This document shows, piece by piece, positions 1,992 to 31,672 of a DNA stretch of 64,000 nt. A program made the position numbers and the translations under genes. How positions within the stretch are numbered: position 1 is the stretch's first letter; each line of letters opens with the position of its first letter. A model generated the notes under the pieces. It saw nothing but the letters and a program-made list of their open reading frames with translations, ran no database searches and was not told where the DNA came from. The stretch is from an uncultured Devosia sp. (GTDB lineage Bacteria > Pseudomonadota > Alphaproteobacteria > Rhizobiales > Devosiaceae): contig NZ_CAMLHM010000001.1 of the NCBI RefSeq assembly GCF_946479885.1, forward strand, positions 248,001 to 312,000, read 5' to 3'.

Positions 1992-2079
1992 AACGACGCG
2001 CCTTGGCAATAGGCATTTTTCGAGCGCTGTGGGATAAGGCTCCCGGGGCATGAAGCCGGCATCTGGGGATTGGCAAAGA

Positions 2080-4389: not shown

Positions 4390-4391
4390 GG

Positions 4392-5243: not shown

Positions 5244-5303
5244 GTCGGCCTCCGGTGAAAGCAGGAAAGAGAGCGGGCCGGCATCACGCCGGCCCGTTGA
5301 CGA

Positions 5304-6269: not shown

Positions 6270-6292
6270 GGGTCGGCTCCGTTGGGAAAAGG

Positions 6293-13089: not shown

Positions 13090-13169
13090 CACTGTCCGCT
13101 CGCCTCGACCGCCGAGGCCGACCCCGACCAATGGCCGAGACCGATTTTGCCAAAAAACTCTGGCAAAAT

Positions 13170-13185
13170 TTGAATACGTATGCAA
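13170..13185. promoter_or_regulatory. LacI-type operator site A (TTGAATACGTATGCAA)
   Basis: The 16-base site matches the palindrome TTGCATACGTATGCAA at 15 of 16 positions. It lies between the divergent hydrolase-SnoaL gene (start 13089) and the histidinol-dehydrogenase homologue (start 13294), so one site could control both. Related sites are at 16895, 20127, 26415 and 26438. Confidence 0.75.
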
Positions 13186-13242
13186 GATCAAAATCAACAG
13201 CTGGCAGTGAGCCGTCCGCCAGCAATCTTGCAGCAAAATACC

Positions 13243-13261
13243 AGCATGCTTGCAGCATGCT
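13243..13261. repeat. two tandem copies of the palindrome AGCATGCT
   Basis: AGCATGCT occurs at 13243-13250 and 13254-13261, each self-complementary, separated by TGC and 33 bases before the downstream start. It could be a second operator or a leader hairpin for the dehydrogenase gene. Confidence 0.4.
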
Positions 13262-13293
13262 TGTTCTCACTCGCGCATTCGGAGCTGACCGCG

Positions 13294-14583
13294 ATGACCC
13301 TCGCCCCCAATTCACCTTTTCCCGGCGTCACCTATGTGAAGGCGCCCGAGCGCTCCTCGATCGGCGACAACGCCCCGGTCGAAACGCTGGTGAGCGAGAT
13401 CATCAAGAATGTCCGCGCCAATGGCGACGCAGCGGTTCGGGAATACTCCGCCAGGTTCGACAAGTCGGACCTCCAGGTGTTCGAAGTCACTGCAGCAGAA
13501 CGCGAATCCGCGCTGGCCGAACTCGATCCGCAGACCCGCAAGGACACCGAATTCGCCATCGCCAATGTGCGCAAATTCGCCGAAGCCCAGCTCGCCACCA
13601 TCCTGCCGCTCGAGGTCGAGACCCTCCCCGGCGTGCATATGGGCCACCGCGTCATCCCCATCCAGCGCGTCGGCTGCTACGTCCCCGGTGGGCGCTATCC
13701 CCTTCTATCTGCTCCGATAATGACCATCGTCCCGGCCAAGGTCGCCGGCGTCGACGAGGTCATCGCCTGTCTTCCGCCGAACGCCCACAAGGCGATGATT
13801 GCTGGCTGCCACCTCTCCGGCGCCGACCGCATCTTCCGCATCGGCGGCGCCCAGGCCATCGCAGCCATGGCCTATGGCACAGAGAGCGTGCCTGCCGTCA
13901 ACAAGATCGTCGGCCCCGGCAATGCCTTCGTCAACGAAGCCAAGCGCCAGGTGTTCGGCCCCGTGGGTATCGACCAACTCGCTGGCCCGTCAGAGATTTT
14001 CGTCGTCGCAGACGCCACCGGCGATGCCGAGATGATCGCCACCGATCTCCTCGCGCAAGCCGAGCACGACATCCGCACCCGCGTGGGTCTGATCACCACC
14101 GACAGGGCCCTGGCCGAGGCCACCCTCCGCGAAGTCGAGGCGCAGCTCCAGACGCTTTCCACGGCCACCACCGCCCGCGAAGCCTGGATCAACTACGGCG
14201 AAATCACCGTCTGCGCCGACGAAGCCGCCATGATCGCCTATTCCGACCTCATCGCCGCCGAACACCTGCAGGTCCACACCGCGGATGCCAAGGCCTTCGC
14301 CAAAAAGCTGAGGAATTACGGTAGCTTGTTCATCGGCGAACTGGCCAGCGTGGTCTATTCCGACAAGTGCAGCGGCACCAACCACACCCTCCCCACCATG
14401 GGCGCCGGCGCCTATACCGGCGGGTTGTGGGTCGGCGCCTATGTGAAGATCGCCACGCATCAGTGGCTGAGCGAAGAAGGCGTGAAGCAGGTCGCGCCAC
14501 CAGCGGCGCGACAGTCAGCCAGCGAGGGTCTGGAAGGCCACCGCCGGGCGGCGCAGCTGCGGCTGGACCGGATGCAGGCATAG
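13294..14583 (+). CDS. histidinol-dehydrogenase-family alcohol dehydrogenase (catabolic paralogue 1)
   Basis: 429 residues of the HisD fold, an NAD- and zinc-dependent family that can oxidise an alcohol through to the acid. Probable zinc ligands are kept: Gln and His in LLAQAEHD, Asp in [15 protein letters not shown] and a C-terminal His in EGLEGHRRAAQLRL; the catalytic Glu-His pair is in IAAEHLQVHT. It is not the biosynthetic enzyme: that is at 40819, and this protein has the TLPT...YTGGLWVG segment of catabolic HisD homologues such as sulfopropanediol 3-dehydrogenase. ATG 13294 follows GGAGCTGACCGCG; a start at 13180 would overlap the operator. It belongs to the palindrome-marked catabolic island. 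Confidence 0.85.
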   Translation: MTLAPNSPFPGVTYVKAPERSSIGDNAPVETLVSEIIKNVRANGDAAVREYSARFDKSDLQVFEVTAAERESALAELDPQTRKDTEFAIANVRKFAEAQLATILPLEVETLPGVHMGHRVIPIQRVGCYVPGGRYPLLSAPIMTIVPAKVAGVDEVIACLPPNAHKAMIAGCHLSGADRIFRIGGAQAIAAMAYGTESVPAVNKIVGPGNAFVNEAKRQVFGPVGIDQLAGPSEIFVVADATGDAEMIATDLLAQAEHDIRTRVGLITTDRALAEATLREVEAQLQTLSTATTAREAWINYGEITVCADEAAMIAYSDLIAAEHLQVHTADAKAFAKKLRNYGSLFIGELASVVYSDKCSGTNHTLPTMGAGAYTGGLWVGAYVKIATHQWLSEEGVKQVAPPAARQSASEGLEGHRRAAQLRLDRMQA

Positions 14584-14600
14584 ATCTCGCAGTCGGGAAT

Positions 14601-14642
14601 CCTCTCCCGCTTGCGGGAGAGGGGGACCACGCATAGCGTGGT
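14601..14642. repeat. paired palindromic repeat 5' of DUF559 gene
   Basis: Two hairpins in tandem: CCTCTCCCGC-TT-GCGGGAGAGG (14601-14622, perfect 10-base arms) and ACCACGC-ATA-GCGTGGT (14626-14642, 7-base arms). The first could terminate the dehydrogenase transcript. Similar CTCTCCC/GGGAGAG hairpins recur at 38598 and 47039. Confidence 0.75.
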
Positions 14643-14672
14643 GGAGAGGGGAGCCACGCGCGCGGAGCCATC

Positions 14673-15023
14673 GTGCGGTCACCAGACTTCATTCGCGATC
14701 GCGCCAAGACGCTGCGCCGCGCCATGACTCAGCCGGAGAAGACGCTGTGGCATCTTCTTCGGCGCAATAGCTTGGGCTGGCATTTTCGCCGTCAGCACCC
14801 GATTGGTCCGTATATTCTCGACTTCTACTGCGCCGCGCTAAAGCTCTGTGTCGAGGTCGATGGACCAGTGCATGATGAGCAGGTTGAGCGCGATGAGCGC
14901 CGAACGGCTTGGCTGAACAAGGAGGGGCTCACGGTGATCCGCTTCTCGGCCGACGAGGTCGAGACGCGGCCGGCAGCGATCATCGCCGCCATCGCGCGCG
15001 CGGCACCCCCCTCCACCGCCTGA
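14673..15023 (+). CDS. DUF559 domain protein, small Vsr-like endonuclease fold
   Basis: A 116-residue DUF559 protein: RAKTLRRAMTQPEKTLWHLL at the start, the core RRQHPIGPYILDFYCAALKLCVEVDG, then RRTAWLNKEGLTVIRFSADEV. DUF559 belongs to the PD-(D/E)XK nuclease-like proteins; the Asp of ILDFYC and the Glu-x-Asp of CVEVDG are the putative metal-binding acids. Cellular role unknown. Palindromic repeats lie on both sides, and the stop codon sits in the loop of the 3' hairpin. It resembles none of its catabolic neighbours, so it may be a passenger that moved in with the repeats. Confidence 0.85.
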   Translation: MRSPDFIRDRAKTLRRAMTQPEKTLWHLLRRNSLGWHFRRQHPIGPYILDFYCAALKLCVEVDGPVHDEQVERDERRTAWLNKEGLTVIRFSADEVETRPAAIIAAIARAAPPSTA

Positions 15024-15055
15024 CGGCGGTCGCCCTCCCCCGCAGGCGGGGGAGG
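15015..15055. repeat. paired palindromic repeat 3' of DUF559 gene
   Basis: ACCGCC-TGAC-GGCGGT (15015-15030) has the DUF559 stop TGA in its loop. CCTCCCCCGC-AG-GCGGGGGAGG (15034-15055) follows with perfect 10-base arms. The order (short hairpin, then long pyrimidine/purine hairpin) mirrors the 5' side. Confidence 0.75.
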
Positions 15056-15069
15056 AATCCCGGCTGCGC

Positions 15070-15771
15070 CTATTTGATCTTATCCGCCTCCAGCCAAGCC
15101 GCTTTCAGCTTCTCCACCGTGAACCCTGGCGCCCTTGCCGCGGTCAAAATCGGCACTTCCTTGCGCATCACCACATCGATCGCCCAGGCCATGCGCTCGA
15201 TATTCTCGGCCGGGATCACCACGGCGCCATGCCGATCGGCATGGATCAAATCCCCCGGCCGCACCGACATCCCGAACACCGTCACCGGGCAATCGAGCTC
15301 CGTCACATGCACAAAAGCGTGGCTTGGCCCGACGGCGCCGGCAATCACCTGGTAGCCTTCGTCGAGCATCCCAAGATCGCGCAGTACGCCATTGGTGACC
15401 GTGCCAGCTATGCCCAGCCCCTTGTGCTGGGCCACCTGCATTTCGCCCCAGAAACCGCCGATGACATGGGGGAAATCGGTGTCCTCGATGACCACGACAT
15501 TAGGCCCCTCGCCCGCTGCCACATACTCATAATAGGCCATGCGCAGGGCCCGCACCTCGGCTGCCGGCTTCTGTGCTGGCGACGAGGCGCGGATCTTGGC
15601 GGTGCGGGCAAAGCCCACGACCGGCGGCAGGTTTGGATCGGCGCAGACCACCGGGGTCTTGGTAAAGCCCTCCGCGGTGCGCCCGCCCATGACGTGTTCA
15701 AGGGCGTTGCAGACGGTGGGGGTATCGGCCTTGCGCAGGGCAGCAAGGACGTCGGGCGAGATGGTTGGCAT
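15070..15771 (-). CDS. RraA-like / HMG-aldolase-family protein
   Basis: A 233-residue protein of the RraA/DmtH family, whose enzymes include 4-hydroxy-4-methyl-2-oxoglutarate aldolase and oxaloacetate decarboxylase. Features: TPTVCNALEHVMGGR near the start, FWGEMQVAQHKGLGIAGTVTNGVLRD around residues 110-135 and RPGDLIHADRHGAVVIPAE at the C-terminal half, where Asp and Arg residues bind metal and oxyacid substrates. The ATG at 15771 follows GGAGAAACC. It sits 64 bases after the bicupin gene and is probably co-transcribed. A pyruvate-releasing retro-aldol step in the island's pathway is the likely role (inference). Confidence 0.85.
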   Translation of the reverse strand: MPTISPDVLAALRKADTPTVCNALEHVMGGRTAEGFTKTPVVCADPNLPPVVGFARTAKIRASSPAQKPAAEVRALRMAYYEYVAAGEGPNVVVIEDTDFPHVIGGFWGEMQVAQHKGLGIAGTVTNGVLRDLGMLDEGYQVIAGAVGPSHAFVHVTELDCPVTVFGMSVRPGDLIHADRHGAVVIPAENIERMAWAIDVVMRKEVPILTAARAPGFTVEKLKAAWLEADKIK

Positions 15772-15835
15772 GGTTTCTCCTTTTGGGCGTGAGCATCGAG
15801 CCATCCACACCCGGATCGTGGTGCTATCCGGAACT

Positions 15836-16873
15836 TTACTCCGCCGCCTGCGCCGCCACGAATTGCGGGGCCGCCGGTGCCGCGGCACCACGCACCACAA
15901 AGGCAATCGCATCAGCCGAAGCCGGGTTGCGGAAGCCATGCGCCAGGCCGATCGGCACGGTCAGCGTATCGCCGGCCCCCAGGATGAGCGCGCCATCGGC
16001 CCAGCTCACTTCCAGCGTGCCCGACTGCACGAAGATCACCTCCTGCTCGCTGCGGCTATGGGCCGGGATGGTTGCGCCTGTCTCGAGCTTGAGGCGACGC
16101 AGGGCAAAGTCATGCTGCCAGTGGCCGATGATCGGGCCGGCCTTGAAGCCGTCCTGGGCATCGATATCGCCGATCAGCGCGGCTTCTTCCACGCCCTCGC
16201 CCGCCAGCGGCGAGTTCGGGTTGCCCTTCATCTGCTCGGGCTTGAGCGCATATTTGCTGAGCTCGGACATTGGCGGCGTCGCCAGTTCCTTCATCTTGGC
16301 GGCGTCGGGGGGCAGCTCCATCTCGGCGCCCTCGGGCACCGTCTCGCCCAGCGTGGTATCGATCAGCTTGCCGCCTTTCAGCAGCTTGAGGCCAAAATCC
16401 TCGGCCATCTTGAAGACGCTGGGAGCCCAGACCACCTTGCCCGGATCGTCATGGCCGAGCACGACATAGAGGAAGCCAGTGCCCTCGTCGCGCTTCTCGA
16501 AGCCGCGGAACATGTGGGTTGGCACAGTGGCCACGTCGCCCGGCTCGACATCGAGATAACCCTCATCCTTGTTGGCGCCGAACACGAAGCGCCACTTGCC
16601 GGTATGGACCACGAAGGTTTCGGCCGTCAGGTGGCTATGCTGGCTGTTGGTGCAGCCAAAGGGCTGGCGCGCGGCGCCGACGTTGAAGCCATGCGCCTCG
16701 GGGATATGTACCACCTGCGCCGGGTTCTCGCTCACGCCGGGGCCGATGATGGTGAAGTTCTCCTTGCGGTCCGAACCGGGCGTGCGCGCATCGATAAAGG
16801 CGTTGCGCAGGCCCTTGAGATCGGCGTAGCGCACCAGGCGCTTTTCCATCTCGCTTTGCGTCCATTTGGTCAT
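15836..16873 (-). CDS. bicupin protein, possible dioxygenase
   Basis: The 345-residue protein has two cupin barrels. The first has a metal-site pattern in TNSQHSHLTAETFVVHTGKW and GDVATVPTHMFRGF (about residues 75-125). The second has GATIPAHSRSEQEVIFVQSG and GDTLTVPIGLAHGF (about residues 260-320). Bicupins include gentisate-type ring-cleaving dioxygenases and sugar-acid isomerases, so the reaction is not certain. An operator-like palindrome (site B) lies only 22 bases before its start, following AAAGGATGTTCCG. It is likely the first gene of a two-gene unit with the RraA-like gene. Confidence 0.8.
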   Translation of the reverse strand: MTKWTQSEMEKRLVRYADLKGLRNAFIDARTPGSDRKENFTIIGPGVSENPAQVVHIPEAHGFNVGAARQPFGCTNSQHSHLTAETFVVHTGKWRFVFGANKDEGYLDVEPGDVATVPTHMFRGFEKRDEGTGFLYVVLGHDDPGKVVWAPSVFKMAEDFGLKLLKGGKLIDTTLGETVPEGAEMELPPDAAKMKELATPPMSELSKYALKPEQMKGNPNSPLAGEGVEEAALIGDIDAQDGFKAGPIIGHWQHDFALRRLKLETGATIPAHSRSEQEVIFVQSGTLEVSWADGALILGAGDTLTVPIGLAHGFRNPASADAIAFVVRGAAAPAAPQFVAAQAAE

Positions 16874-16894
16874 CGGAACATCCTTTCATCGCAT

Positions 16895-16910
16895 TTGCAT
16901 TCGTATGCAT
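16895..16910. promoter_or_regulatory. LacI-type operator site B (TTGCATTCGTATGCAT)
   Basis: The core TGCATTCGTATGCA (16896-16909) is symmetric except at one pair. It is 22 bases upstream of the bicupin start codon, close enough to block transcription start or early elongation. Confidence 0.75.
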
Positions 16911-16953
16911 CGAGAGGCAAAAACGAGGCGTGGCCGGTTGAGCCTCGGTCTCG

Positions 16954-18024
16954 CTACGCCTCTTTGGGTCGGTAAACCTTGCGGCCGTCGGTTTCGACGA
17001 TGCCTGTCTTGGGAAGTCTGGCGGAGGTGCGGACAACCAGTTCGCCATTGAGAATGCGGTGTTCCGCCTCGATATCGCCGCTCGCGATCTGATCCATCAG
17101 GATATCGACCGTGGCTTCCACCATGCGCTTGAGCGGCTGGCTCATCGAGGTGATGCCATAGGAGGTCCAGCGGGCCGGTCCGACATCGTCGTAGCCAATG
17201 ATGGAGAGGTCCTCGGGTATCCGAAGCCCGAATTCATGACGCGCCACATCCATCACGGCGACAGCCATGTGGTCATTGGCGACAAACAGCGCATCGGGCC
17301 GGTCGGAGCGTGAAAACATCTTGCGCGCGGCGGCTTCGGCATCGGTCCGCGAATAGTTGCCGGTTTCGACGAGCACGTCGGTAAAGCCGTGCGCGGCCAG
17401 GCCCTCGATGAAACCCTGCTGGCGGTCGCGGTTGGTGGACGAGTTTTCGAGGCCGGCAATATAGGCAAAGCTCTTGTGCCCACCCGCCACCAGAAAGTCG
17501 GCAATCCGCTTGCCGCCTTCCCTGTTGCGCGTGGTGACGCTGGATACCGCATCGCGCTCGGTGGTGCGGTTGAACAGCACGACCGGAATGCCGGCGGTGG
17601 CGCACTCTTCCGACAGTTCCGAGGACAGCGAGGTCGATGCCAGGATGATGCCGTCGACGCGATACTGCATGAGCTGGTCGAAGACCGGATCGCTGTCACG
17701 GTCCTTGAAGCCGGTGAACAGCAGCAGGTGGTAGTTCTCCGCCGCCAGCGCCCGACCCAGCTCCTCAAGCACGTCCGGATAGAACAGGTTTTCCAGATAC
17801 GCCATCACCACCGCGATGATACGCGAGCGGTTGGTGATCAGCGAGCGGGCTATGGCGTTGGGCCGGTAGCCCAGTTGCTTGGCCGAAGCCAACACCTTCT
17901 GCCGCGTCTTGGGCGAGATCGACGCGCCGGGCGTAAAGGTGCGCGACACAGCCGACTGCGAGACGCCAGCGTGCTCGGCGACCTGGCTGGATGTGACGCC
18001 GGGCTTTTTTACTCCGCTGTCCAT
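16954..18024 (-). CDS. LacI family regulator of the catabolic island
   Basis: 356 residues. The HTH is VTSSQVAEHAGVSQSAVSRT, the hinge LGYRPNAIARSL, and the effector domain begins SRIIAVVMAYLENLFYPDVL. ATG 18024 lies 16 bases inside the end of the SDR gene, so the two are coupled. It is the third gene of the unit that starts under operator C and is the only LacI-type gene within the island. It is therefore the best candidate to bind the TTGCATnCGnATGCAA sites and to regulate itself. The inducer is unknown. Confidence 0.9.
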   Translation of the reverse strand: MDSGVKKPGVTSSQVAEHAGVSQSAVSRTFTPGASISPKTRQKVLASAKQLGYRPNAIARSLITNRSRIIAVVMAYLENLFYPDVLEELGRALAAENYHLLLFTGFKDRDSDPVFDQLMQYRVDGIILASTSLSSELSEECATAGIPVVLFNRTTERDAVSSVTTRNREGGKRIADFLVAGGHKSFAYIAGLENSSTNRDRQQGFIEGLAAHGFTDVLVETGNYSRTDAEAAARKMFSRSDRPDALFVANDHMAVAVMDVARHEFGLRIPEDLSIIGYDDVGPARWTSYGITSMSQPLKRMVEATVDILMDQIASGDIEAEHRILNGELVVRTSARLPKTGIVETDGRKVYRPKEA

Positions 18025-18773
18025 CCGCCATCCACCAGAAGTGAAGCACCTGTCACCAGCGCAGCGGCATCGGATGCGAGGAACACGATCGGGCCCATAA
18101 TGTCTTCGATCCGGCCCAGGCGACCGAGCTTGATCTTGGACAGGACCCAGCTCCGGAATTCGGGGTCGCTGAGATTCTTGCTCGTCAACTCGGTCTCGAT
18201 GAAGGTCGGGCACACCGTATTGACCCGGATATTATGAGGACCCAGCTCGATAGCCATGGCCTTGGAGAGCCCTTCAACAGCAAACTTGCTGGCGGCATAG
18301 ACGGCGCGGCTCGGCCCGCCCACATGGCCCATCTGTGATGAAATATGGATGATCGAACCGGGCAGGCCTGCCGCAGTCAGCCGCGCCACGACCGCCTGCG
18401 AGACGAAGAGCGCCGCCGACAGATTGAGGTCCATCACCGCCTGGTAGTTGGCCGGGGTGATATCGGCAAAGCTCGAATGCCGCGCCGTGCCCGCGGAATT
18501 GACCAGCACTTGGAAGGGTTCGACGTCGTCGACGAAAGCCTTGACCGCCGCGCTGTCGGTGATGTCGAGCGCCACGCCCTCGCCGGAGAGGCCCGCATCG
18601 GCCATCTGGTTGACCACGGTCTCGATATCGCCGGCCGTGCGCGCCGCAATGGTCACTGCGGCGCCGGCTTCGGCCAAGGCCACCGCCGCGCCCAGCCCGA
18701 TGCCGCGCGTGCCCCCGGTAACAAGGGCCCGCTTGCCGTCAAGACGGAAGCTGGGAGTGCGCGGCAGGCTCAT
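18009..18773 (-). CDS. short-chain dehydrogenase/reductase
   Basis: The product is a 254-residue classical SDR: cofactor loop TGGTRGIGLG, NSAG motif, catalytic Ser in IIHISSQMG and YAASK with the Tyr-Lys pair, ending GASLLVDGGWTAE. It probably oxidises or reduces a hydroxyl of the island's substrate with NAD(P). The start follows the dehydrogenase stop by one base and the end overlaps the LacI gene. The HisD-homologue plus SDR pair recalls the hpsN/hpsO pairing in dihydroxypropanesulfonate catabolism, but nothing here proves that substrate. Confidence 0.88.
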   Translation of the reverse strand: MSLPRTPSFRLDGKRALVTGGTRGIGLGAAVALAEAGAAVTIAARTAGDIETVVNQMADAGLSGEGVALDITDSAAVKAFVDDVEPFQVLVNSAGTARHSSFADITPANYQAVMDLNLSAALFVSQAVVARLTAAGLPGSIIHISSQMGHVGGPSRAVYAASKFAVEGLSKAMAIELGPHNIRVNTVCPTFIETELTSKNLSDPEFRSWVLSKIKLGRLGRIEDIMGPIVFLASDAAALVTGASLLVDGGWTAE

Positions 18774-18774
18774 C

Positions 18775-20103
18775 TTACTCGGCAGCCTCCGTGCGCGGCG
18801 TAGCGCCGGTGCCGTAGGGGATGTTGCGACCGCCATAGCGGCGCACCCGCACATTGGCCTGCTCGGCATGGCCGACAAAGCCCTCCAGCATCGATAGCCG
18901 CGAACCATACTCGCCGATCATGGCCGAGGCCGCGTCAGTCGTGACGGTCTGCCACGTACAGGTCTTCATGAATTTGCCCACCCACAGGCCACCCGTATAG
19001 CGCGCCGCCTTCATCGTGGGGAGAGTGTGATTGGTGCCGATCACCTTATCGCCATAGGCTACGTTGGTGCGCGGTCCGAGGAACAGTGCACCATAATTGG
19101 TGAGCCTGTCCCGGAACCACATATCGCGGTCCGTCATCACCTGCACATGTTCCGACGCGATGCGGTCGGCTTCGACCAGCATCTCGAAATAATCCTCGCA
19201 GACGATCACCTCGCCATAGTCCGCCCAGGACTTCCGGGCGATTTCGCCGGTGGGCAGGATTTCGAGCAGGCGCTCGATTTCGGCCATGGTCTCGCGTGCC
19301 AGCTTTTCCGACGTGGTCAACAGGATGGCGGGCGTGGTGGGGCCGTGCTCGGCCTGGCCGAGCAGGTCCGTGGCGCAGATTTCGCCGTCGACCGTTTCGT
19401 CGGCAATGACCAGGGTTTCCGTCGGACCGGCGAACAGGTCGATGCCGACGCGGCCGAAAAGCTGCCGCTTGGCTTCGGCAACGAAGGCATTACCCGGGCC
19501 CACCAGCATGTCGACCGGGTCGATGCTCTCGGTGCCGATGGCCATGGCGCCGATGGCCTGGATGCCGCCAAGGACGTAGATTTCATCGGCACCGGCCATC
19601 GCCTGTGCGGCGACGACAGCCGGTGCCGGCTTGGCTCCAAAAGGGGGAGCACAAGTGATGACCCGCTCGCATCCCGCCACCTTGGCTGTGATCACCGACA
19701 TGTGGGCGGAAGCGAGCAGAGGGTATTTACCGCCGGGCACGTAGCAACCCACGGCATTGATCGGCACATGCTTGTGGCCCAGCGTCACCCCAGGCAGCGT
19801 CTCGACCGAGAGGTCGGTCATGGTGGCGCGCTGCGCCCGCGCGAAATTGCGCACCTGGGTCTGGGCAAATTCGATGTCGGTAAGATCCTGATCGGTGAGC
19901 TGCGCAATGCAGTCGTCGATCTCCTGCTGACTCAGCCGGAAGTCCTCGCGGTCCCACCTGTCGAATTTGGCGCTGAGCTCGCGAACGGCATCGTCCCCGC
20001 GCTTTTCGATATCGCCGAGAATGCCCTCGACCGTGGCGCGCACCTGGCGATCCGCCTCGGCCCGCTCCTCGACATTCTTACCGCGCTTGAGCCAGACTGG
20101 CAT
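18775..20103 (-). CDS. histidinol-dehydrogenase-family alcohol dehydrogenase (HpsN-like, catabolic paralogue 2)
   Basis: 442 residues. It keeps the HisD metal and catalytic positions: [28 protein letters not shown] and the C-terminal [13 protein letters not shown]. The start MPVWLKRGK and the segment [19 protein letters not shown] fit the catabolic branch that includes sulfopropanediol 3-dehydrogenase (HpsN), with a C-terminal extension after the usual HisD end. The ATG at 20103 follows CAGGAGCGACCC; a longer frame to 20142 would run through operator C. It leads the SDR-LacI unit. Likely reaction: NAD-linked oxidation of a primary alcohol to the acid. Confidence 0.87.
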
Positions 20104-20126
20104 GGGTCGCTCCTGTTTCCTGCATT

Positions 20127-20142
20127 CTGCATACGTATGCAA
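20127..20142. promoter_or_regulatory. LacI-type operator site C (CTGCATACGTATGCAA)
   Basis: The inner 14 bases TGCATACGTATGCA (20128-20141) are a perfect palindrome. It lies between the amidase stop and the HpsN-like start, 24 bases before the start codon, and so marks an internal promoter in the leftward gene string. Confidence 0.8.
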
Positions 20143-20183
20143 ATTTGTAAACGGTCACCTTGCGGATCGCCGTCGGATTCTGT

Positions 20184-21839
20184 CTAGGCGGCCGGCGGTC
20201 GCTGAACCGCGTGGTCGGTCACTCGCTCGAAGGCGTCACCGATCTGGACGATGCGGGCCTCATCATGATGCTTGCCGATAATCTGCATGCCGATGGGCAG
20301 GCCGTTGTGAAAGCCGATCGGCAGGGCCAGCACGGGGTGACCGCTGACGTTGAAAGCGATGGTTCGCATCGGCGTCCACACGACTTCCCTTTCAAACGGC
20401 GCGGCCGGCAGGGCCGTGGTCAAAGCGCCCACGGTAGCCAGTGCATCGCAGCGGGTCAGCAGCGTGTCGACGGCGGAGCGGAATGCGGCCCCTGCCCGCT
20501 TTGCTGCGGCCAGTTCCTCATCCGTCACGGCCACGCCGGCAGCCAGGCTGAGAAAAGTGCGACGGCCATAGGCCCCGGGGTTCTGCCGCAGATTGTCGGC
20601 GTGATGATCAAAGCTCTCCTTGTGCAGGATTGCCGCGGCAGCCACTTCGATGGCGAAGTAGTCCGGCAGGTCGACCTCTTCGATTGTGGCGCCCAGCTGG
20701 GACAGCGTGGACATGGCCGCGTCCATAGCGGTCAGCACGGCCGGCATGGTCTGGGCGTCAAGGGCGAACCAGTTTCGGGCATAGCCAATGTGCAGCCCGG
20801 CCACCGACTGGCCCAGTCGCGCCGCAGCGCCCTGATGATCGGAAATGACGTCGAGCGTAATCGCAGCCTCGGCGACTGTCGCGCTCATGGGGCCGACATG
20901 ATCCATACTATCAGACATGGGCAGCACGCCTGCCGTAGGCACAGCGGCGAAGGTCGGCTTCAATCCAACTACGCCACAATAGAAAGCCGGCCCGCGCAGC
21001 GACCCGCCGGTGTCGGTGCCCAGCGTCGTCCGCAACAGGCCGCCGGCAACCGCGACGGCACTGCCAGACGATGAGCCTCCGGTAATGTGATCCAGGCTCC
21101 ACGGGTTGCGCGCCGGAGGGAATAGTCCGCCCTTGTCGGGGCCGACCGTACCCCATTCATAGGTCGCCAGCTTGCCAATCAGCACCGCGCCACCCGCCCG
21201 CAGCCGCTCGACGACCTCAGCATCGGCCGTGGCAATTGCGTCGGCCCGGCCCGGCGCATCGGCCGTCGTCGGCAAGCCGGCGACATCGATCAGGTCCTTG
21301 ATGCCGATTGGAATGCCATGCAGCGGACCACGATCCTGCCCAACCGCCAATTCAGCATCGGCACGGGCCGCTTCAGCCAGGGCGCGTTCGGTCGCGACCA
21401 CATAGAAGGCGCGATAGGCGCCATCCCGCCTGGCAATCCGGTCCAGATGCGCCTCAGCCAGCGCGACCGATGTCAGCCGCCCATCGCGCAGCATGCGGCC
21501 CTGCTCGAGTAGCGACAGATCCAGTGCGGCGTTGGCGGCGAGGCCGTCGGCCCCTTTCACGACGTCATTCCCGCGAAGGCGGGTATCCACACTTGTTTCC
21601 GTGGCGGGAAGAGTGGCTTCCCGCCTTTGCGGCAATGACGCCGTGGGTTGGAGAGATATAGGAGTGTCAGCCCCTTTGGCGCGCGCAAGTCCGTCGCGCA
21701 ACCAGGTCGCAAGCTTATAGATCCCGTCGCTCTCGCTCGCCGACAAGGCAATACCGTGGCGCGTCAAGGCAGCGTCGAAGGCGACGCGGCGTTCATTGTC
21801 GGTAGGATCGATGGCCAAGGCGGATACCTGCGCAGACAT
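20184..21839 (-). CDS. amidase-signature hydrolase with in-frame repeat insertion
   Basis: A 551-residue amidase-signature enzyme hydrolysing an amide, urea or carbamoyl bond. The Ser-cisSer-Lys triad is visible: Lys181 in GIPIGIKDL, cis-Ser in TGGSSSGS (about 256) and nucleophile Ser280 in TDTGGSLRGPA. A small N-terminal helical region (RVAFDAALTRHGIALSASES) precedes it. Residues about 58-98 are encoded by a palindromic repeat inserted in frame (see 21546-21677). It follows the ATPase gene's region closely: its start is two bases from the ATPase stop on the other side of the boundary, so it is read as the last gene of the ABC operon. The import partner suggests the amide is taken up first. 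Confidence 0.88.
   Translation of the reverse strand: MSAQVSALAIDPTDNERRVAFDAALTRHGIALSASESDGIYKLATWLRDGLARAKGADTPISLQPTASLPQRREATLPATETSVDTRLRGNDVVKGADGLAANAALDLSLLEQGRMLRDGRLTSVALAEAHLDRIARRDGAYRAFYVVATERALAEAARADAELAVGQDRGPLHGIPIGIKDLIDVAGLPTTADAPGRADAIATADAEVVERLRAGGAVLIGKLATYEWGTVGPDKGGLFPPARNPWSLDHITGGSSSGSAVAVAGGLLRTTLGTDTGGSLRGPAFYCGVVGLKPTFAAVPTAGVLPMSDSMDHVGPMSATVAEAAITLDVISDHQGAAARLGQSVAGLHIGYARNWFALDAQTMPAVLTAMDAAMSTLSQLGATIEEVDLPDYFAIEVAAAAILHKESFDHHADNLRQNPGAYGRRTFLSLAAGVAVTDEELAAAKRAGAAFRSAVDTLLTRCDALATVGALTTALPAAPFEREVVWTPMRTIAFNVSGHPVLALPIGFHNGLPIGMQIIGKHHDEARIVQIGDAFERVTDHAVQRPPAA
21546..21677. repeat. palindromic element inserted in frame in the amidase gene
   Basis: Arms at 21563-21583 (CGTCATTCCCGCGAAGGCGG plus G) and 21620-21640 are inverted copies with 19 of 21 matches. 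A near-exact 12-base direct repeat, GTCGGCCCCTTT (21546-21557) and GTCAGCCCCTTT (21666-21677), flanks them like a target duplication. The offset is exactly 120 bases, 40 codons, so the reading frame survives and the protein gains a repeated Lys-Gly-Ala-Asp with low-complexity sequence between. Confidence 0.8.
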
Positions 21840-21840
21840 G

Positions 21841-22899
21841 TCAGATGGCAGCGACGATACGCTGACCGCCGGCGCGGTCGAAGAGGTGACATGCGGCAGG
21901 AGCGATATTGACGCGGACCATGTCGCCGATCTCGGCCCGGTAGTCCTTGCCGACCTTGATGGACACGAGTTCGCCGGCCACGCGCATCGAGATCATCGTG
22001 GCTTCCCCGAGCAGCTCGACCGAATAGATCGGCGCTTCGACATGACCGCGCTCACCGGCCAGCACTGCATCTTCCGCGCGGAAGCCGAGCGTCACCGGGC
22101 CCTTGACCGACTTCGGCAGGCCATCGACGCGGATATGGTCGCCGCTGAACACACCATCGGCGATCTCGCCATGCACCAGGTTCATTGCCGGCGAGCCGAT
22201 GAAGCTGGCGACAAACGTGTTGGCCGGGCGATCGTAGATTTCCATGGGCGTGCCGACCTGCTGGATCAGCCCCTTGCTCATTACCACCACACGGTCGGCC
22301 AGCGTCATGGCCTCGATCTGGTCGTGGGTCACATAGATGGTGGTGCGCTTGAGCGTATGATGCAGGTTCTTGATCTGCGCGCGGGTCGAAACGCGCAGCT
22401 TGGCGTCGAGGTTGGACAGCGGCTCGTCCATCAGGAAGGCGTTGGGTTCGCGCACGATGGCGCGGGCGAGGGCCACGCGCTGGCGTTGGCCGCCGGACAG
22501 AGCCGCTGGCCGGCGCTGCAGGAAGTCGTCGAGCTCGACCATCTTGGACGCGGCCATTACCCGCTCGTGGTGCTGTTCGGCCGGCACCTTGCGGACCTTG
22601 AGAGGGAAACGGATGTTCTCGTAGACCGTCATGTTCGGATAGAGCCCGTAGCTCTGGAACACCATCGAGATGTCGCGGTCCTTGGGCTCGAGCCGGTTGA
22701 CCAGCCGTTCGCCGATCCAGATCTCGCCCTCGGTGATGTCCTCGAGCCCCGCGATCATGCGCATGGTCGTGGTTTTGCCGCAGCCGGAGGGTCCCAGCAG
22801 CACGAGGAATTCCTGGTCTGATATATCGAGGTTGAAATTGTCCACGCCGACAAAGTTGTTCCAGCGCTTGGACACATTCTTGAGACGGATCTGAGCCAT
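21841..22899 (-). CDS. carbohydrate-type ABC transporter ATP-binding protein (MalK/UgpC family)
   Basis: The 352-residue ATPase has Walker A GPSGCGKTTT, Q-loop FQSYGLYPNMTVYENI, signature LSGGQRQR, Walker [12 protein letters not shown] and switch region [10 protein letters not shown]. The C-terminal TOBE/OB domain (VTLGFRAEDAVLAGERGHV) is typical of MalK/UgpC-type subunits. It energises the two permeases encoded just upstream. The stop is followed by the amidase start after one base. Members of this family serve sugars, polyols or sugar phosphates. Confidence 0.92.
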   Translation of the reverse strand: MAQIRLKNVSKRWNNFVGVDNFNLDISDQEFLVLLGPSGCGKTTTMRMIAGLEDITEGEIWIGERLVNRLEPKDRDISMVFQSYGLYPNMTVYENIRFPLKVRKVPAEQHHERVMAASKMVELDDFLQRRPAALSGGQRQRVALARAIVREPNAFLMDEPLSNLDAKLRVSTRAQIKNLHHTLKRTTIYVTHDQIEAMTLADRVVVMSKGLIQQVGTPMEIYDRPANTFVASFIGSPAMNLVHGEIADGVFSGDHIRVDGLPKSVKGPVTLGFRAEDAVLAGERGHVEAPIYSVELLGEATMISMRVAGELVSIKVGKDYRAEIGDMVRVNIAPAACHLFDRAGGQRIVAAI

Positions 22900-22903
22900 G
22901 GGA

Positions 22904-23791
22904 TCAGCCTTTCACTGCGCCGGCGGTGAGCCCGCTGACGATCTGGCGTTGGAAGAAGAGCACGAGGATGAAGAGTGGCACCGTTGCCGAGACCACTGCG
23001 GCCACGGCGAACATGACATTGCCCTGCTCCTGCACCGAGCCGAGGAAACTCGAGATCTTGGGCACCATGGTCTGGTTATCGGCGCTGAGCAGCATCGAGG
23101 TGGTGGCAAAGTCGTTATAGGCGAGCAGGAAGCTGAACAGCCCCGTCGTCACCACGCCCGGCCACATCACCGGAATGATGACCCGCCGGAACGCCTCGAA
23201 GCGCGAGCAGCCATCGACCATGGCGCTCTCGTCGAGGTCCTTGGGAATGCTGAGGAAAAACGAATGCAGCATCCACAGCGTGAACGGCTGGTTGATCGCC
23301 ACCAGCACGATAATCGAGGTAGGCAGCACGCCCCAGATATTGAACTGGAAGAAGGGCAACAGGTAGCCCGAGACCAACGTGATATGCGGCATGGCGCGGA
23401 AGACCAGGGCAGCGATCAGGATCCAGAAGGCGTAGCGCTGGCCAGACCGGGCCAGCGCATAGCCACCCAGCGTACCCAGCGTCAGCGAAATGACGGTGAC
23501 ACTGACCGTGACGATGGCGGTATTGCCCGCAGCGCGCCAGAAGCCGCGCGTCACCCAGGCCCCGTAATAGCCGTCGCCGGTAAAGGCAGCGCCGGTCTGG
23601 ATCTGGGTATAGGTGCCGGCAATGGCGTTCCACCAGCTTTCGCGGGAGAAGAAATCGGGCTCGACCTTGAACGATCCCCAGACCGTCCAGACGAAGGGGA
23701 AGGCAGCCAGCACCACCCAGAGGGCGATGAAGCCTGATATCAGCAGGTTGAGCGGCAGCGGACGGCGTTGCGCGAGCACGGCTTCAGACAT
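22904..23791 (-). CDS. ABC transporter permease, MalG-like
   Basis: 295 residues with about six membrane segments and a coupling loop, EAFRRVIIPVMWPGVVTTGL, preceded by KDLDESAMVDGCS. The C-terminal GLTAGAVKG is typical of MalG-type sugar permeases. It pairs with the MalF-like permease encoded one base upstream and the ATPase four bases downstream. Confidence 0.92.
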   Translation of the reverse strand: MSEAVLAQRRPLPLNLLISGFIALWVVLAAFPFVWTVWGSFKVEPDFFSRESWWNAIAGTYTQIQTGAAFTGDGYYGAWVTRGFWRAAGNTAIVTVSVTVISLTLGTLGGYALARSGQRYAFWILIAALVFRAMPHITLVSGYLLPFFQFNIWGVLPTSIIVLVAINQPFTLWMLHSFFLSIPKDLDESAMVDGCSRFEAFRRVIIPVMWPGVVTTGLFSFLLAYNDFATTSMLLSADNQTMVPKISSFLGSVQEQGNVMFAVAAVVSATVPLFILVLFFQRQIVSGLTAGAVKG

Positions 23792-23792
23792 G

Positions 23793-24824
23793 TCACACCA
23801 CCTTGTGGTTGAATTCGCGCCAGGTGCGGATCAACACTGGCATGAGCAGCACGATGACCCCGGCAATGGTCAGCACCGAGGTGGCGCCGGCCGAACCGAA
23901 CAGCTGGGCGTCGCCGCTGAGATCGTTGAAGATCAGCCAGCTCAGCGACGTCGCATTGGCCTCGGCCGAGAAGCCGACGATCGGCTCGAAGACGCGGAAA
24001 TTGTCCATCAGCTGCACCAGGGCGACGAAGGTGGCGAGCGGTGCCAGGTGCGGGATGATGACGTAGCGGATGCGTTCCCATCGGGAGGCGCCATCGATCA
24101 TCGCCGATTCCAGCGTATCGCCCGGCACGGTCTGGAGCCCCGCATAGAACACCACGAAGCTGAACGGCGCATTGGTCCACACGCCATAGAACAGCAGCGA
24201 GGCCCAGGTCAGCATGGGCGAGGCGCGCAGCGACAGCGTCGGGTCGTTGAAGAGGTTCTGCAGCGTCGCGCCGATGATGCCGTTGGCCTGGATCATCCAG
24301 TAGAGGATCAGCGAGCCGACCAGCGGCGTAATGATCATGGGCAGCAGCGAGAAAAAGATCACCGGTCCCTTGGTGAACTTGGGCAGCGCGTTGACCGCCA
24401 GCGCGATGGCAAAGCCCAGCCCCATGGCCAGCGGCGTTACCACGAAACAGAAGACCAGGGTAAAGGCCAGGGCCTTGTAGAAGGGCAGATTGTAGATGCG
24501 GCTGACCACGTCACCGAAGCCGGCATTGCTGCTGAGGATGGCGCCGATCTCATTGACCGCCAGGTGGCCGCGATTGAGATAGGTGCCGAAGCCGTTGAAC
24601 CGCCCCATGGGCTGCGCGGATTCAAGTTCGGCCATGGCGGCCGTATCGACCCGGGTTTCCTTGGTGCAGCCGCCGAAGGGCTGGCAGTTTTCCACCTCGA
24701 CCAGGATGCGGCCATGCTCGACATGGAAGCTCTGCACCACGACCGAAACGATCGGCAGCGCGATGAACAGCACCATCGCGATCAGCGAGGGCAGGATGAA
24801 GGCAAAGAATGTCTTATGCGGCAT
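23793..24824 (-). CDS. ABC transporter permease, MalF-like
   Basis: 343 residues starting MPHKTFFAFILPSLIAMVLF. It has an extended periplasmic loop after the first membrane helix with a CQPFGGC cysteine pair, and the coupling loop DGASRWERIRYVIIPHLAPL. It is the larger permease of the island's importer. The frame continues further upstream to 25058, but that part translates palindromic repeat DNA, so the ATG at 24824 was chosen. Confidence 0.9.
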   Translation of the reverse strand: MPHKTFFAFILPSLIAMVLFIALPIVSVVVQSFHVEHGRILVEVENCQPFGGCTKETRVDTAAMAELESAQPMGRFNGFGTYLNRGHLAVNEIGAILSSNAGFGDVVSRIYNLPFYKALAFTLVFCFVVTPLAMGLGFAIALAVNALPKFTKGPVIFFSLLPMIITPLVGSLILYWMIQANGIIGATLQNLFNDPTLSLRASPMLTWASLLFYGVWTNAPFSFVVFYAGLQTVPGDTLESAMIDGASRWERIRYVIIPHLAPLATFVALVQLMDNFRVFEPIVGFSAEANATSLSWLIFNDLSGDAQLFGSAGATSVLTIAGVIVLLMPVLIRTWREFNHKVV

Positions 24825-24904
24825 CGAAGGCCCCTCGGAAGCAAAGCTGGCGAGTGTTTGCCGAACTGGATGAGGTTCAGTATCGCCACACCAACCAGGC
24901 GGCA

Positions 24905-25002
24905 CCTCCCCCTCGACGGGGGAGGTTGGGAGGGGGTGATGAGAGCCCCGATATTGGGGCCAGACATCCCCCACCCTTGATCCCTCCCCGCAAGGGGGAG
25001 GG
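24905..25002. repeat. three palindromic repeats between binding-protein and permease genes
   Basis: The gap holds three hairpins: CCTCCCCC-TCGAC-GGGGGAGG (24905-24925), GCCCC-GATATT-GGGGC (24945-24960) and CCCTCCCC-GCAAG-GGGGAGGG (24982-25002). In this position they could protect the upstream binding-protein mRNA and reduce read-through, giving more receptor than permease. Confidence 0.75.
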
Positions 25003-25023
25003 CGTCGACTGCGGGCTAGCGGC

Positions 25024-26262
25024 CTAGAGGTAGCCGCCTTCCTTGGCAGCGGTGTCATAGGCAGCCTTCACGTCGGCCAGTGCGGTGGCAGCATCTTCAG
25101 TGCCGGCCATGAACTCGGCCAGTTCGGACGACAGGGCCGTGTGCAGCAGGCCCATATAGGGCTGCATCGGGTAGGCACGGGCGCCGGCATTGGCGGTGGC
25201 GATCACGCCGACGGCAGCCGGACCGGGCTCGTAGCCGGCGACCAGCCAGGTGGCGACGGCCGGGTTGGCGGCGACCATTTCCGGGCTGATGCCATGCACC
25301 ATGGCCTGGAACGAGGCGGCAGCGTCTTCGTCCGAGATGTTCTTGGCGATGGTGAAGCCGTCCCACCACAGCGCCACGGCCGGGATGGTGCCGCCACCGA
25401 TGGTCGGGGCCGCGGCCAGTACGGTATTGGCGACGACGCCGTCGGCAGCACCTTCATCGTCGATGGTGGCGCCGGCCAGCGAACCCCATTCGACCATCAT
25501 GGCGGTGTTGCCGGCTTCATACTCGGCCTTGATGCCATTGGCGTCGAAGGTCAGGTAATCCGGGTCCATATAGGCGGTCAGGGCGCGCATGGTCTCGAGT
25601 ACCTTGGCGCCGTTCTCGTTGTCGATCGCCAGCTCGGCCGAGCCGGGGGCGAAGAACTCGGCGCCAGTGCCGAGATAGGCGTTGACGAATTCAGCCGCCA
25701 GGTCCCAGCCCGGCTTCACGGATGCGGCGACCGGATATTCCATGGCGCCCGATGCCTTGATCTTCTCGGCGGCGGCCAGGATGTCTTCATAGGATTTGGG
25801 TTCGGCGGCGCCAGCGGCGTCGAGCACGTCCTTGCGATAGAACAGGTGCTGCGCATTGCCCATGAAGGCGATGGCCATGACCTTGCCGTCGATCTTGATG
25901 AGCTGGTTGGGCTGCAGCGATGCGCCATACTTGGCCACCAGATCGTCGAGCGGACGGATCAGGTCGTCGTTCAGCAGCGGCACGATGGAGTTGTTGGCGA
26001 CCACTGCGACCGTATATTCGGCTGGGTTGATCGAGAGCGCCGGAACCTGGAGGTTCTTGTGCTCGGCATTGGCATTGGCGGTGACGGTCACCGTGTCCGA
26101 AGCACATTCCTCGGCCGTGGTATTGACGAGACGCAGGGCCTCGAAGTCATTGGACAGGATCCGCACCGAACCGGCGCCCTCGATCCCGCAGTCAGCAAAT
26201 GCCGCGCCGGCGGTGAGGCACAGGACCCCGAGCGATACAGTCGTCTTCAACATAAGCTTCAT
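25024..26262 (-). CDS. ABC transporter substrate-binding protein, MalE-like
   Basis: A 412-residue periplasmic receptor with a signal peptide (MKLMLKTTVSLGVLCLTAGA, cleaved near AFADCG). Family-like parts include YTVAVVANNSIVPLLNDDLI, AIAFMGNAQHLFYRKDVLDAAG and TAMMVEWGSLAG. A cysteine near the mature N-terminus (DCGIEGAG) and another at ECASDT may form a disulfide. It is the first gene of the operon, far downstream of double operator D. The ligand is unknown; the co-regulated HisD-like and amidase genes point to a hydroxylated, perhaps amidated, small molecule. Confidence 0.9.
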   Translation of the reverse strand: MKLMLKTTVSLGVLCLTAGAAFADCGIEGAGSVRILSNDFEALRLVNTTAEECASDTVTVTANANAEHKNLQVPALSINPAEYTVAVVANNSIVPLLNDDLIRPLDDLVAKYGASLQPNQLIKIDGKVMAIAFMGNAQHLFYRKDVLDAAGAAEPKSYEDILAAAEKIKASGAMEYPVAASVKPGWDLAAEFVNAYLGTGAEFFAPGSAELAIDNENGAKVLETMRALTAYMDPDYLTFDANGIKAEYEAGNTAMMVEWGSLAGATIDDEGAADGVVANTVLAAAPTIGGGTIPAVALWWDGFTIAKNISDEDAAASFQAMVHGISPEMVAANPAVATWLVAGYEPGPAAVGVIATANAGARAYPMQPYMGLLHTALSSELAEFMAGTEDAATALADVKAAYDTAAKEGGYL

Positions 26263-26414
26263 TTCGTTCTCCTGACGGCTAGAACGGCGCTCACTGGGCC
26301 AGATGCGCCGGCCGTCCCCTGTTGTCGTTACGCTCCCGCGGCTGGCGTGATCCCAAGCTCAACTTTCGATCGGCGCCCGCCTTTGTCTTCCGCACGTCAC
26401 AATTGGTAGCAGGC

Positions 26415-26453
26415 TTGCATACGAATGCAATACACATTTGCATTCGTATGCAA
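26415..26453. promoter_or_regulatory. double LacI-type operator D1/D2
   Basis: TTGCATACGAATGCAA (26415-26430) and TTGCATTCGTATGCAA (26438-26453) are 15-of-16 near-palindromes and are reverse complements of each other, with 23 bases centre to centre. They lie about 150 bases upstream of the binding-protein start. Paired operators suggest cooperative binding and tighter control here than at the single sites. Confidence 0.8.
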
Positions 26454-30616: not shown

Positions 30617-31672
30617 GTGTCAAGCAAAAAAGATATCGATAACAATTCAGCTGGAAGCGCGCCGCCGGAACGCCGAACCGCAGCTGGACTGAGCGATATT
30701 GCGCGGCTGACCGGTGTCTCGAAAATGACGGTGAGCCGGGTGCTGCGCGGTGGCACCGGCTTTTCGGAGAACACCCGCCGCAAGGTGCTGGAGGAGGCCG
30801 AGCGCCTGGGTTACGTACCCAACCGGCTCGCCTCGGCCTTCGCGGCCGACCAGGCCTCGACCCTGGTGGGCGTCTGCGTGCCCCGGCTGACATCGGGCCT
30901 GTTCGGGCATGTGCTCGATGGGCTGGACCGCGCGCTGTCGCGGCTCGGCTACCAGATGATGATCGGCTGCAGCAACCATTCCCAGCCCGAGGAAGAGGAA
31001 TGGGTCCGCCAGATCGTGAGCTGGCGTCCGGCCGGCGTCATCCTGGCGGGGCGCAGCCACACGCCGGGCACGGTGCAGATGCTGTCGAGCGGTGGCATAC
31101 CCGTGGTTGAGATGTGGGACCTCACCACCAGCCCCATCGACCTGTCGGTCGGCTTTTCGCATTTCGACTGCGGTGTCGAGATGGCGCGCTTCGCGCTCAA
31201 CCAGGGCCGCCGCCGCGCCGCCTATCTCGGCGCCCATTCGCGCAGCGACGTGATGGGGCAGGCGCGGCTCGACGGTTTCGCCTCCGCCATGGACGAAGCG
31301 GGGCACCCGGTGGTCGAACGCGAAATCCTCGAGGATGCGCCGAGCTTCTATGCGGGCTTCTACGGTCTCGAAATCCTCCTGGCGCGCCAGCCGGACCTCG
31401 ACCTCGTCTATTTCCACAATGACGAAATGGCTATTGGTGGGCTGGCGTTTTGCCAGGCGCGCGGCCTGCGGGTGCCCGAGGATATCGGCATTGCCGGCTG
31501 GGGTGGCATGGAAGCCGCGTCCATCCTGCCCAAGCGCCTCACCACCACGGTCGTTCCCACGACCGGCCTCGGCACGCAGGCGGCCCGCGCACTGGTTGCC
31601 CGCATCCGGGGGGAGCCGACCCGGCGCGTCATCGCCGTGCGCACAAGGCTGATCGAAGGCGAAACGGTCTGA
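30617..31672 (+). CDS. LacI family regulator, GntR/IdnR-like (paralogue 1)
   Basis: 351 residues from a GTG at 30617; no in-frame ATG is close. HTH: LSDIARLTGVSKMTVSRVLR, hinge GYVPNRLASAF, then an effector domain with IPVVEMWDLTTSPIDLSVGF. That last segment closely parallels IPVVETWDLPKDPIENVVGF in the regulator at 37191, so the two likely sense related sugar acids. It is divergent from the ABC operon and converges, stop to stop, with the gluconolactonase gene. A GATATCGATAACA site lies inside its own first codons. Confidence 0.9.
   Translation: MSSKKDIDNNSAGSAPPERRTAAGLSDIARLTGVSKMTVSRVLRGGTGFSENTRRKVLEEAERLGYVPNRLASAFAADQASTLVGVCVPRLTSGLFGHVLDGLDRALSRLGYQMMIGCSNHSQPEEEEWVRQIVSWRPAGVILAGRSHTPGTVQMLSSGGIPVVEMWDLTTSPIDLSVGFSHFDCGVEMARFALNQGRRRAAYLGAHSRSDVMGQARLDGFASAMDEAGHPVVEREILEDAPSFYAGFYGLEILLARQPDLDLVYFHNDEMAIGGLAFCQARGLRVPEDIGIAGWGGMEAASILPKRLTTTVVPTTGLGTQAARALVARIRGEPTRRVIAVRTRLIEGETV
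30632..30644. promoter_or_regulatory. ATCGATAACA-type site inside the start of the LacI gene
   Basis: GATATCGATAACA is the exact reverse complement of TGTTATCGATATC at 34587-34599, upstream of the idnO-like gene. It shares ATCGATAACA with 37161-37174. Inside codons 6-10 it could act as a roadblock for autoregulation. Confidence 0.6.

Follow-up and report, generated by a model that had tools for sequence, protein, structure and literature searches.

Introduction

Among described systems, the closest to the locus reported here are the local regulons of the LacI family, in which, according to the accessible part of Ravcheev et al. 2014 (PMC4052901), one LacI protein acts through a palindromic operator on its own gene and on genes for an importer and enzymes, with site pairs near 22 bp. 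The same arrangement, with autoregulation predicted, was found in a 64,000-nucleotide stretch of an uncultured Devosia sp. (contig NZ_CAMLHM010000001.1, positions 248,001 to 312,000; the whole stretch is called the window below). Here, an island of catabolic genes at window positions 11164 to 26453 includes a lacI gene and carries a 16-bp palindrome before each of its transcription units. The word "histidinol" has no occurrence in the main text of PMC4052901 (its supplementary tables lay outside that search).

Several enzymes of the island can be compared with characterized relatives. Two of its proteins, HisD1 and HisD2, fall into the same family (PF00815) as histidinol dehydrogenase HisD and as HpsN, the 3-dehydrogenase of R-2,3-dihydroxypropanesulfonate (R-DHPS). 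The accessible part of PMC11382572 gives as diagnostic motifs G-R-Y-A/S-H, which ends in His126, for HpsN and G-S-A-P-L for HisD, where Leu is usual at the His126 position. The island proteins share with HpsN the catalytic Glu318-His319 and the Asp352-Lys353 pair, whereas they have Leu, Ile, or Met in place of His126, and their partners and regulator differ. Leu at this position is shared with HisD, from which they differ by the motif G-[RK]-[YF]-P-x and by matching solved HisD structures less well than HpsN. The amidase, whose best NCBIfam model is AtzE (score below cut-off), is clustered with an NTF2-superfamily protein, as in the AtzE-AtzG-AtzH system of cyanuric acid degradation (PMC6219798, accessible part), but that of the island belongs to SnoaL families and not to DUF3225. 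Finally, an RraA-like protein retains two residues of the HMG/CHA aldolase and RraA family (PMC5065237, accessible part), the catalytic Arg and the metal-binding Asp directly after it, although its scores fall short of the cut-off for every NCBIfam model listed.

Results

Palindromic sites in the window

The original prediction had placed five palindromic sites before the transcription units of the island, and all five were recovered at the same coordinates (Table 1). They are the only copies of the consensus TTGCATACGTATGCAA within 3 mismatches in the 64 kb, where 0.08 matches would be expected according to dinucleotide shuffles; none of 100 shuffles reached five. No sixth copy was present in the 64 kb even at 4 mismatches. 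Every unit of the island is indeed preceded by one or two sites. The site at 13170 lies inside the 204-bp gap between the divergent hydrolase and HisD1 genes and therefore serves two units, and the sites at 26415 and 26438 form a pair 153-191 nt upstream of the gene for the solute-binding protein (SBP) of the importer. The DNA flanking the five sites differs from site to site. Operator 3 overlaps the lone sigma-70-like match between 11000 and 26700 (20151-20124, - strand); since this promoter scan gave one match against a mean of 3.0 in shuffles, it was not used as evidence.

The HisD2-SDR-LacI unit (SDR, short-chain dehydrogenase) ends with LacI, which, standing behind a palindrome, would be autoregulated. 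This gene had been described as the only internal LacI gene, which holds for the island; two more LacI genes lie outside the island in the window (2050-3123 and 30617-31672), and both differ from the island LacI in their recognition-helix letters.

Conservation of the sites in relatives

Related loci (L numbers; genomes have G numbers) were the best 80 of 566 candidates encoding LacI relatives from a scan of a genome collection, plus four plasmid loci (84 in total), with synteny established by tblastn. Most of the best LacI matches were in Devosia records, with up to 92% identity. At least one site at ≤3 mismatches was detected in 80 of the 84 loci; of the remaining four (L059, L060, L082, and L083), the last three lie on contigs too short for a full flank. 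In the 29 loci with a LacI of 76% identity or more, which we call Devosia-type although not all are named Devosia, there were 114 sites at ≤3 mismatches, located at promoters equivalent to those of the window. Positions 2, 3, 5, 6, 8, 9, 11, and 14 were invariant across these 114 sites, a set chosen for its likeness to the consensus. With the threshold at ≤2 mismatches, the 29 loci contained 103 sites, whereas 60 palindromes with scrambled halves averaged 0.15 matches in this DNA and reached 4 at most. A lack of motif enrichment at these genes in related genomes had been named beforehand as grounds for refutation; the enrichment was found, and the interpretation was not refuted.

Neighbouring sites <150 bp apart fell into three spacing classes, 22-25 bp (21 pairs), 53-56 bp (13 pairs), and 88-90 bp (22 pairs), with other spacings in five pairs. 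In Enterobacterales, the palindrome occurs beside the orthologous lacI in pairs with the 88-90 bp spacing. For LacI-type site pairs, peaks at 13, 22, and 32 bp have been described, the latter two read as cooperative binding (Ravcheev et al. 2014, PMC4052901, accessible part). The two longer spacings of our set may reflect looping.

In the Devosia genomes with mapped sites, the palindrome is nearly confined to the cluster. Five whole genomes had 20 sites at ≤2 mismatches between them, every one within the 21-kb cluster ranges, and the reversed-pattern control gave none (read by eye). Site positions were printed for part of the genomes; in the 15 LacI carriers among these, which include G001 and G002, 69 of 75 sites were ≤20 kb from LacI. 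Two further sites belong to the detached half of a naturally split cluster in G031, where hydrolase-SnoaL, HisD1, RraA, and bicupin genes lie ~60 kb from the LacI-SDR-HisD2-amidase-importer genes. Each half has two sites in the expected gaps, an arrangement that fits a trans-acting regulator better than the passive inheritance of one DNA block.

Co-occurrence of the sites with LacI orthologues

We compared the occurrence of the site with that of the regulator in 75 genomes of the genus Devosia (the genus of L010), in which LacI carriers were counted by eye, fragments included. A LacI orthologue of 77-92% identity was present in 33 genomes. The site at ≤2 mismatches was detected in 45 of the 75 genomes, and the reversed pattern in three. 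Carriers of a LacI with ≥77% identity had the site in 31 of 33 cases, compared to 14 of the 42 genomes lacking it (Fisher p about 5e-8, uncorrected for kinship). Three of these 14 are explained: G028 has the whole cluster with a 53%-identical LacI and three sites (L091), while the sites of G012 and G025 stand beside a 38-39%-identical LacI paralogue.

In 60 Enterobacter genomes drawn from the genus of L033, the exact site TTGCATACGCATGCAA, a form chosen after it had been seen in related loci, was present in 19 of 20 genomes with a LacI orthologue and in none of 40 without (Fisher p about 1e-14, uncorrected for kinship). In the twentieth carrier, G092, the LacI gene is cut by the contig end.

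One more distant case bears on the same pairing. In L089, a 37%-identical LacI paralogue with the helix string GVSQSAVSR, as in the island LacI, lies beside the site TTGCATCCGGATGCAA, which has the same TTGCAT half and a different centre. Sister operators such as TTGCATCCGGATGCAA adjoin LacI paralogues of 37-38% identity in L089 (8893) and in L092 (9102 and 9125), and a gene named by eye as CaiB-like is next to the paralogue in L089. The L089 paralogue and its operator could possibly serve as a specificity pair for studying operator centres.

Taken together, three features of a LacI local regulon were found here: a regulator gene in the cluster, a palindromic operator at promoters that is kept in relatives, and co-occurrence of the operator with the regulator orthologue. 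The conservation of the sites, their tracking of the LacI orthologue, and, in Devosia genomes with mapped sites, their near-confinement to the cluster support the regulon proposed in the original prediction, with binding and repression as its predicted parts.

The two HisD proteins

The nearest PDB chains of both HisD proteins were HpsN (8wwe/8v35 for HisD1). Both proteins also scored above the cut-off of the TIGR00069 hisD model (450.4 and 436.2 bits versus 243.8). The catalytic Glu-His was retained in both, as was the Asp352-Lys353 pair in 50 of 52 HisD1 and 78 of 79 HisD2 sequences; such a Lys, close to the metal, may favour an anionic partner group. The 52 HisD1 sequences had GRYPL (26) or GRYPI (22) at the diagnostic motif, with F at the last position in one irregular sequence and three sequences unreadable. 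In the 79 HisD2 sequences, the motif was mostly G-K-Y/F-P-L/M, and the His126 position was occupied by L (52), M (25), or I (1), with one unreadable. His126 of HpsN was absent in all 49 readable HisD1 and all 78 readable HisD2 sequences, and the G-S-A-P-L motif of HisD was not found in either protein. As they match neither diagnostic motif, we treated HisD1 and HisD2 as a possible third group; judged by these residues, they perhaps form a third HisD-type group. Among 120 homologues listed of 8000 scored, several JGI names and one NCBI name call HisD2 "sulfopropanediol 3-dehydrogenase". Such database names are probably wrong.

Other enzymes and gene modules

The module content was counted in the 65 loci of ≥20 kb. 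HisD2 was present in 62 of these. HisD1 and the tandem SnoaL were both present in 44 loci and both absent in 21, without a single discordant locus. The amidase was found in 35 of the 44 loci with HisD1 and in none of the 21 without. RraA was present in 23 of the 44 HisD1 loci; those lacking it comprised 20 Enterobacterales loci and L003, which ends early. An HpcH/HpaI aldolase (PF03328) was encoded instead in 23 loci, 22 of them Enterobacterales (L032-L052 and L057). HpcH/HpaI enzymes are aldolases of the pyruvate type. That two unrelated aldolase types are found in comparable places points to a genuine step of aldol cleavage or decarboxylation, the strongest hint at how the pathway ends. Other genes of the relatives encode a major facilitator superfamily (MFS) transporter (23 loci) and a protein resembling cobalamin-independent methionine synthase (PF01717; 29 loci, ten of them Devosia-type). 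When the methionine-synthase-like, HpcH/HpaI, and MFS proteins of relatives were searched against the window, none was found.

The RraA-like protein showed the pattern E-x20-R-D, with the catalytic Arg followed by the metal-binding Asp, in 41 of 43 orthologues. The bicupin (predicted structure with pLDDT 85) retrieved generic bicupins in a structure search, first among them oxalate decarboxylase and quercetinase, with query TM scores of 0.44-0.56 over the 50 matches listed. Profile searches with the bicupin and SnoaL proteins likewise yielded nothing more specific than cupin/quercetinase and ester-cyclase or polyketide-cyclase chains. As all these matches are generic, no reaction could be assigned to either protein. 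A plasmid cluster of Paracoccus alcaliphilus (L095, 2416-14044) has four separate "ester cyclase" genes among importer, HisD, SDR, and LacI genes. An AtzG-like helper in the N-terminus of the amidase was considered and dropped: Pfam, NCBIfam, and PDB profile searches with the N-terminal extension and with small open reading frames of related clusters gave no match to an AtzG-type subunit, a result that leaves room for a similar fold.

Discussion

The proposed regulon and pathway

We consider it highly probable that the island is a local LacI regulon of a Devosia-like bacterium controlling one catabolic route. According to this proposal, a dimer of the island LacI would bind the 16-bp palindrome and repress its own operon (HisD2-SDR-LacI) together with bicupin-RraA, hydrolase-SnoaL, HisD1, and importer-amidase, and the imported compound or an early product would release it. 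The route would have a core of HisD2, SDR, bicupin, alpha/beta hydrolase, and a pyruvate aldolase (of the RraA type here and of the HpcH/HpaI type in Enterobacterales), to which HisD1 and the tandem SnoaL, often with the amidase, would be an add-on module. A polyol-like compound would be taken up by the ABC importer; the HisD enzymes would carry out zinc- and NAD-dependent four-electron oxidation of CH2OH to COOH, and the SDR would oxidize a secondary alcohol. Bicupin and SnoaL could then catalyse a rearrangement, decarboxylation, or oxidative cleavage, followed by hydrolysis and by an aldol cleavage or decarboxylation yielding pyruvate. This order of steps is our inference.

The regulation is ordinary in kind. 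What makes the island interesting is its set of enzymes, the range of bacteria that share it (Devosia, Enterobacterales, and roseobacters), and the HisD proteins, which are likely misnamed. The statement of the original prediction that the enzymes match no known pathway stands, as the analysis gave no substrate and the obvious named candidate, DHPS degradation, fails at the diagnostic residues. A literature search aimed at the cluster found no description, with most subscription papers and supplements outside its reach. Pantothenate, kojic acid, pyridoxine, thiamine, and branched sugar acids were considered as substrates; nothing supported any of them, and none is proposed. We give an even chance to a broader view, in which HisD1 and HisD2 would be a third functional HisD group, four-electron dehydrogenases for a sulfur-free alcohol other than histidinol, heading an undescribed pathway common to Devosia, rhizobia, roseobacters, and Enterobacterales that is unusually rich in SnoaL (NTF2-fold) enzymes and acts on a common, unrecognized natural substrate. 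Compact, widespread, and equipped with a clear genetic switch, the pathway offers a direct test case in the search for an overlooked nutrient. Some of the genes that databases list as sulfopropanediol dehydrogenase may fall outside the sulfur cycle, and DHPS degraders could be overcounted where they are identified by similarity to the HisD family.

Alternative explanations

The single regulator could control two pathways, one built on the HisD2 core and the other, for a different substrate, on HisD1, SnoaL, and the amidase. The joint presence or absence of HisD1 and the tandem SnoaL would fit this, as would the presence of HisD2-SDR-LacI without HisD1 or SnoaL in L015, L016, L026, and L029. 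However, both modules are adjacent and share the same operator, and the SnoaL of one is in frame with the hydrolase of the other in the window and in 18 related loci, which suggests consecutive steps. We regard two pathways as unlikely, while giving the idea some weight.

Several observations count against the single LacI regulon as proposed. Of the 42 genomes of the Devosia genus that lack a close LacI, 14 nevertheless carry 1-3 sites at ≤2 mismatches, and the LacI carriers G050 and G054 have none at this threshold; their coordinates identify these two as the source of L016 and L026, in which a 3-mismatch site precedes HisD2-SDR-LacI, the only part of the cluster found there. The genomes compared are akin and hence not independent of each other, and the exact Enterobacter form was selected after the fact. 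It is the exact form alone that separates the Enterobacter genomes, because at ≤2 mismatches 57 of 60 match, as do 52 of 60 with the reversed control. Of the 75 mapped sites, four are outside the cluster: G030 has two, G035 has one, and G009 has one that adjoins a LacI paralogue. Sites are fewer in roseobacter loci, and the clusters L001 and L003 encode a second LacI. On the side of the pathway, the steps rest on family membership, and the predicted structure of SnoaL had a pLDDT of 30.5.

Some of these points would be expected if another regulator bound the palindrome and LacI were a passenger, namely the sites in genomes without a close LacI and the second LacI of L001 and L003, and it is by inference that LacI is assigned to the palindrome. 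Against a passenger role, the exact site in Enterobacter tracks the LacI orthologue and adjoins lacI, and the L089 paralogue with an identical helix string has a similar half-site. The palindrome also has a central CG, which is typical of operators of the LacI family. We therefore judge a different binder improbable. The sites of G030 and G035 outside the cluster (L087 9867, L088 9527, and L090 9784) have 0-2 mismatches, and no cluster genes adjoin them except general LacI, UgpC, or SDR relatives.

The island could instead be a DHPS degradation cluster whose HisD proteins are HpsN. DHPS catabolism was our first candidate, since HpsN was the best match of both proteins, and the "sulfopropanediol" names and the retained Glu-His and Asp-Lys pairs agree with it. 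It was set aside on the motif test, as the HpsN motif is replaced in both proteins and no readable sequence has the His. Of the partners HpsO, HpsP, and a sulfolyase, an SDR is present in the island, and no sulfolyase was seen among annotated neighbours or Pfam-scanned genes, a check made without a dedicated search for partners that can lie elsewhere. A DHPS cluster seems to us quite improbable. Nothing was found in favour of a repeat element or of chance palindromes without a regulatory role, and this reading is barely credible given the number of sites in the window, their unlike flanks, and their retention upstream of orthologous genes in relatives from the alpha- and gammaproteobacteria.

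Gene layout and neighbouring features

Table 1. Genes and predicted operators of the island, in window coordinates. Start codons were picked by eye within open frames of the window: hydrolase 13089 (-), HisD1 13294 (+), bicupin 16873 (-), HisD2 20103 (-), SBP 26262 (-).
Feature	Position	Strand	Basis or remark
Alpha/beta hydrolase fused in frame to tandem SnoaL (NTF2-like, "ester cyclase")	11164..13089	-	Pfam Abhydrolase_1/6, SnoaL, SnoaL_2; inner Met of SnoaL part at 12306
Predicted operator 1, gap between hydrolase-SnoaL and HisD1	13170..13185	.	Palindrome TTGAATACGTATGCAA, 1 mismatch; same gap in Devosia-type relatives
HisD1, histidinol-dehydrogenase-family, motif GRYPL	13294..14583	+	PF00815
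RraA/HMG-CHA-aldolase-like protein	15070..15771	-	PF03737; start by eye, frame open to 15939
Bicupin	15836..16873	-	PF07883/PF00190
Predicted operator 2, 22 nt upstream of bicupin start	16895..16910	.	Palindrome TTGCATTCGTATGCAT, 2 mismatches; kept in relatives
LacI-family regulator, proposed binder	16954..18024	-	PF00356 + PF13377
Short-chain dehydrogenase (SDR)	18009..18773	-	PF13561; start by eye, frame open to 18908
HisD2, histidinol-dehydrogenase-family, motif GKYPL	18775..20103	-	PF00815
Predicted operator 3, 24 nt upstream of HisD2 start	20127..20142	.	Palindrome CTGCATACGTATGCAA, 1 mismatch
Amidase-signature enzyme, ~100-residue N-terminal extension ahead of domain	20184..21839	-	PF01425 at residues 127-530
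ABC importer ATPase, UgpC/MalK type	21841..22899	-	NF008653 UgpC, 455.7 bits vs cut-off 432
ABC permease 2	22904..23791	-	PF00528
ABC permease 1	23793..24824	-	Synteny with annotated sugar ABC permease genes of relatives; start by eye, frame open to 25058
ABC solute-binding protein (SBP)	25024..26262	-	Synteny with annotated "extracellular solute-binding protein" of relatives
Predicted operator 4a, importer-amidase unit	26415..26430	.	Palindrome TTGCATACGAATGCAA, 1 mismatch; kept in relatives
Predicted operator 4b, 23 bp from 4a	26438..26453	.	Palindrome TTGCATTCGTATGCAA, 1 mismatch; kept in relatives

The domains assigned earlier from the sequence agree with Pfam, except that the Pfam scan gave no match for the SBP. 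Hydrolase and SnoaL had been listed as one unit, and both domains are present; they are not two genes, as the window has a single open frame. The single frame recurs in 18 related loci, and L027, L028, and L004 have separate genes.

Between HisD1 and RraA lies a DUF559 (restriction-endonuclease-like) gene (14673-15023) with no palindrome copy before it. Near the island, at 3574-8223, are genes named by eye as a sulfonate-type ABC importer, an NADPH-FMN-reductase-like protein, and a flavin-monooxygenase-like protein; no palindrome copy occurs there. The amidase frame contains an imperfect palindromic element at 21562-21640 (GTCATTCCCGCGAAGGCGGG and an inverted copy), which is translated between the N-terminal extension and the amidase domain. 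This element had no copy at ≤2 mismatches in the five related loci examined. A diverged copy of its half-pattern is present in the window at 43125-43144.

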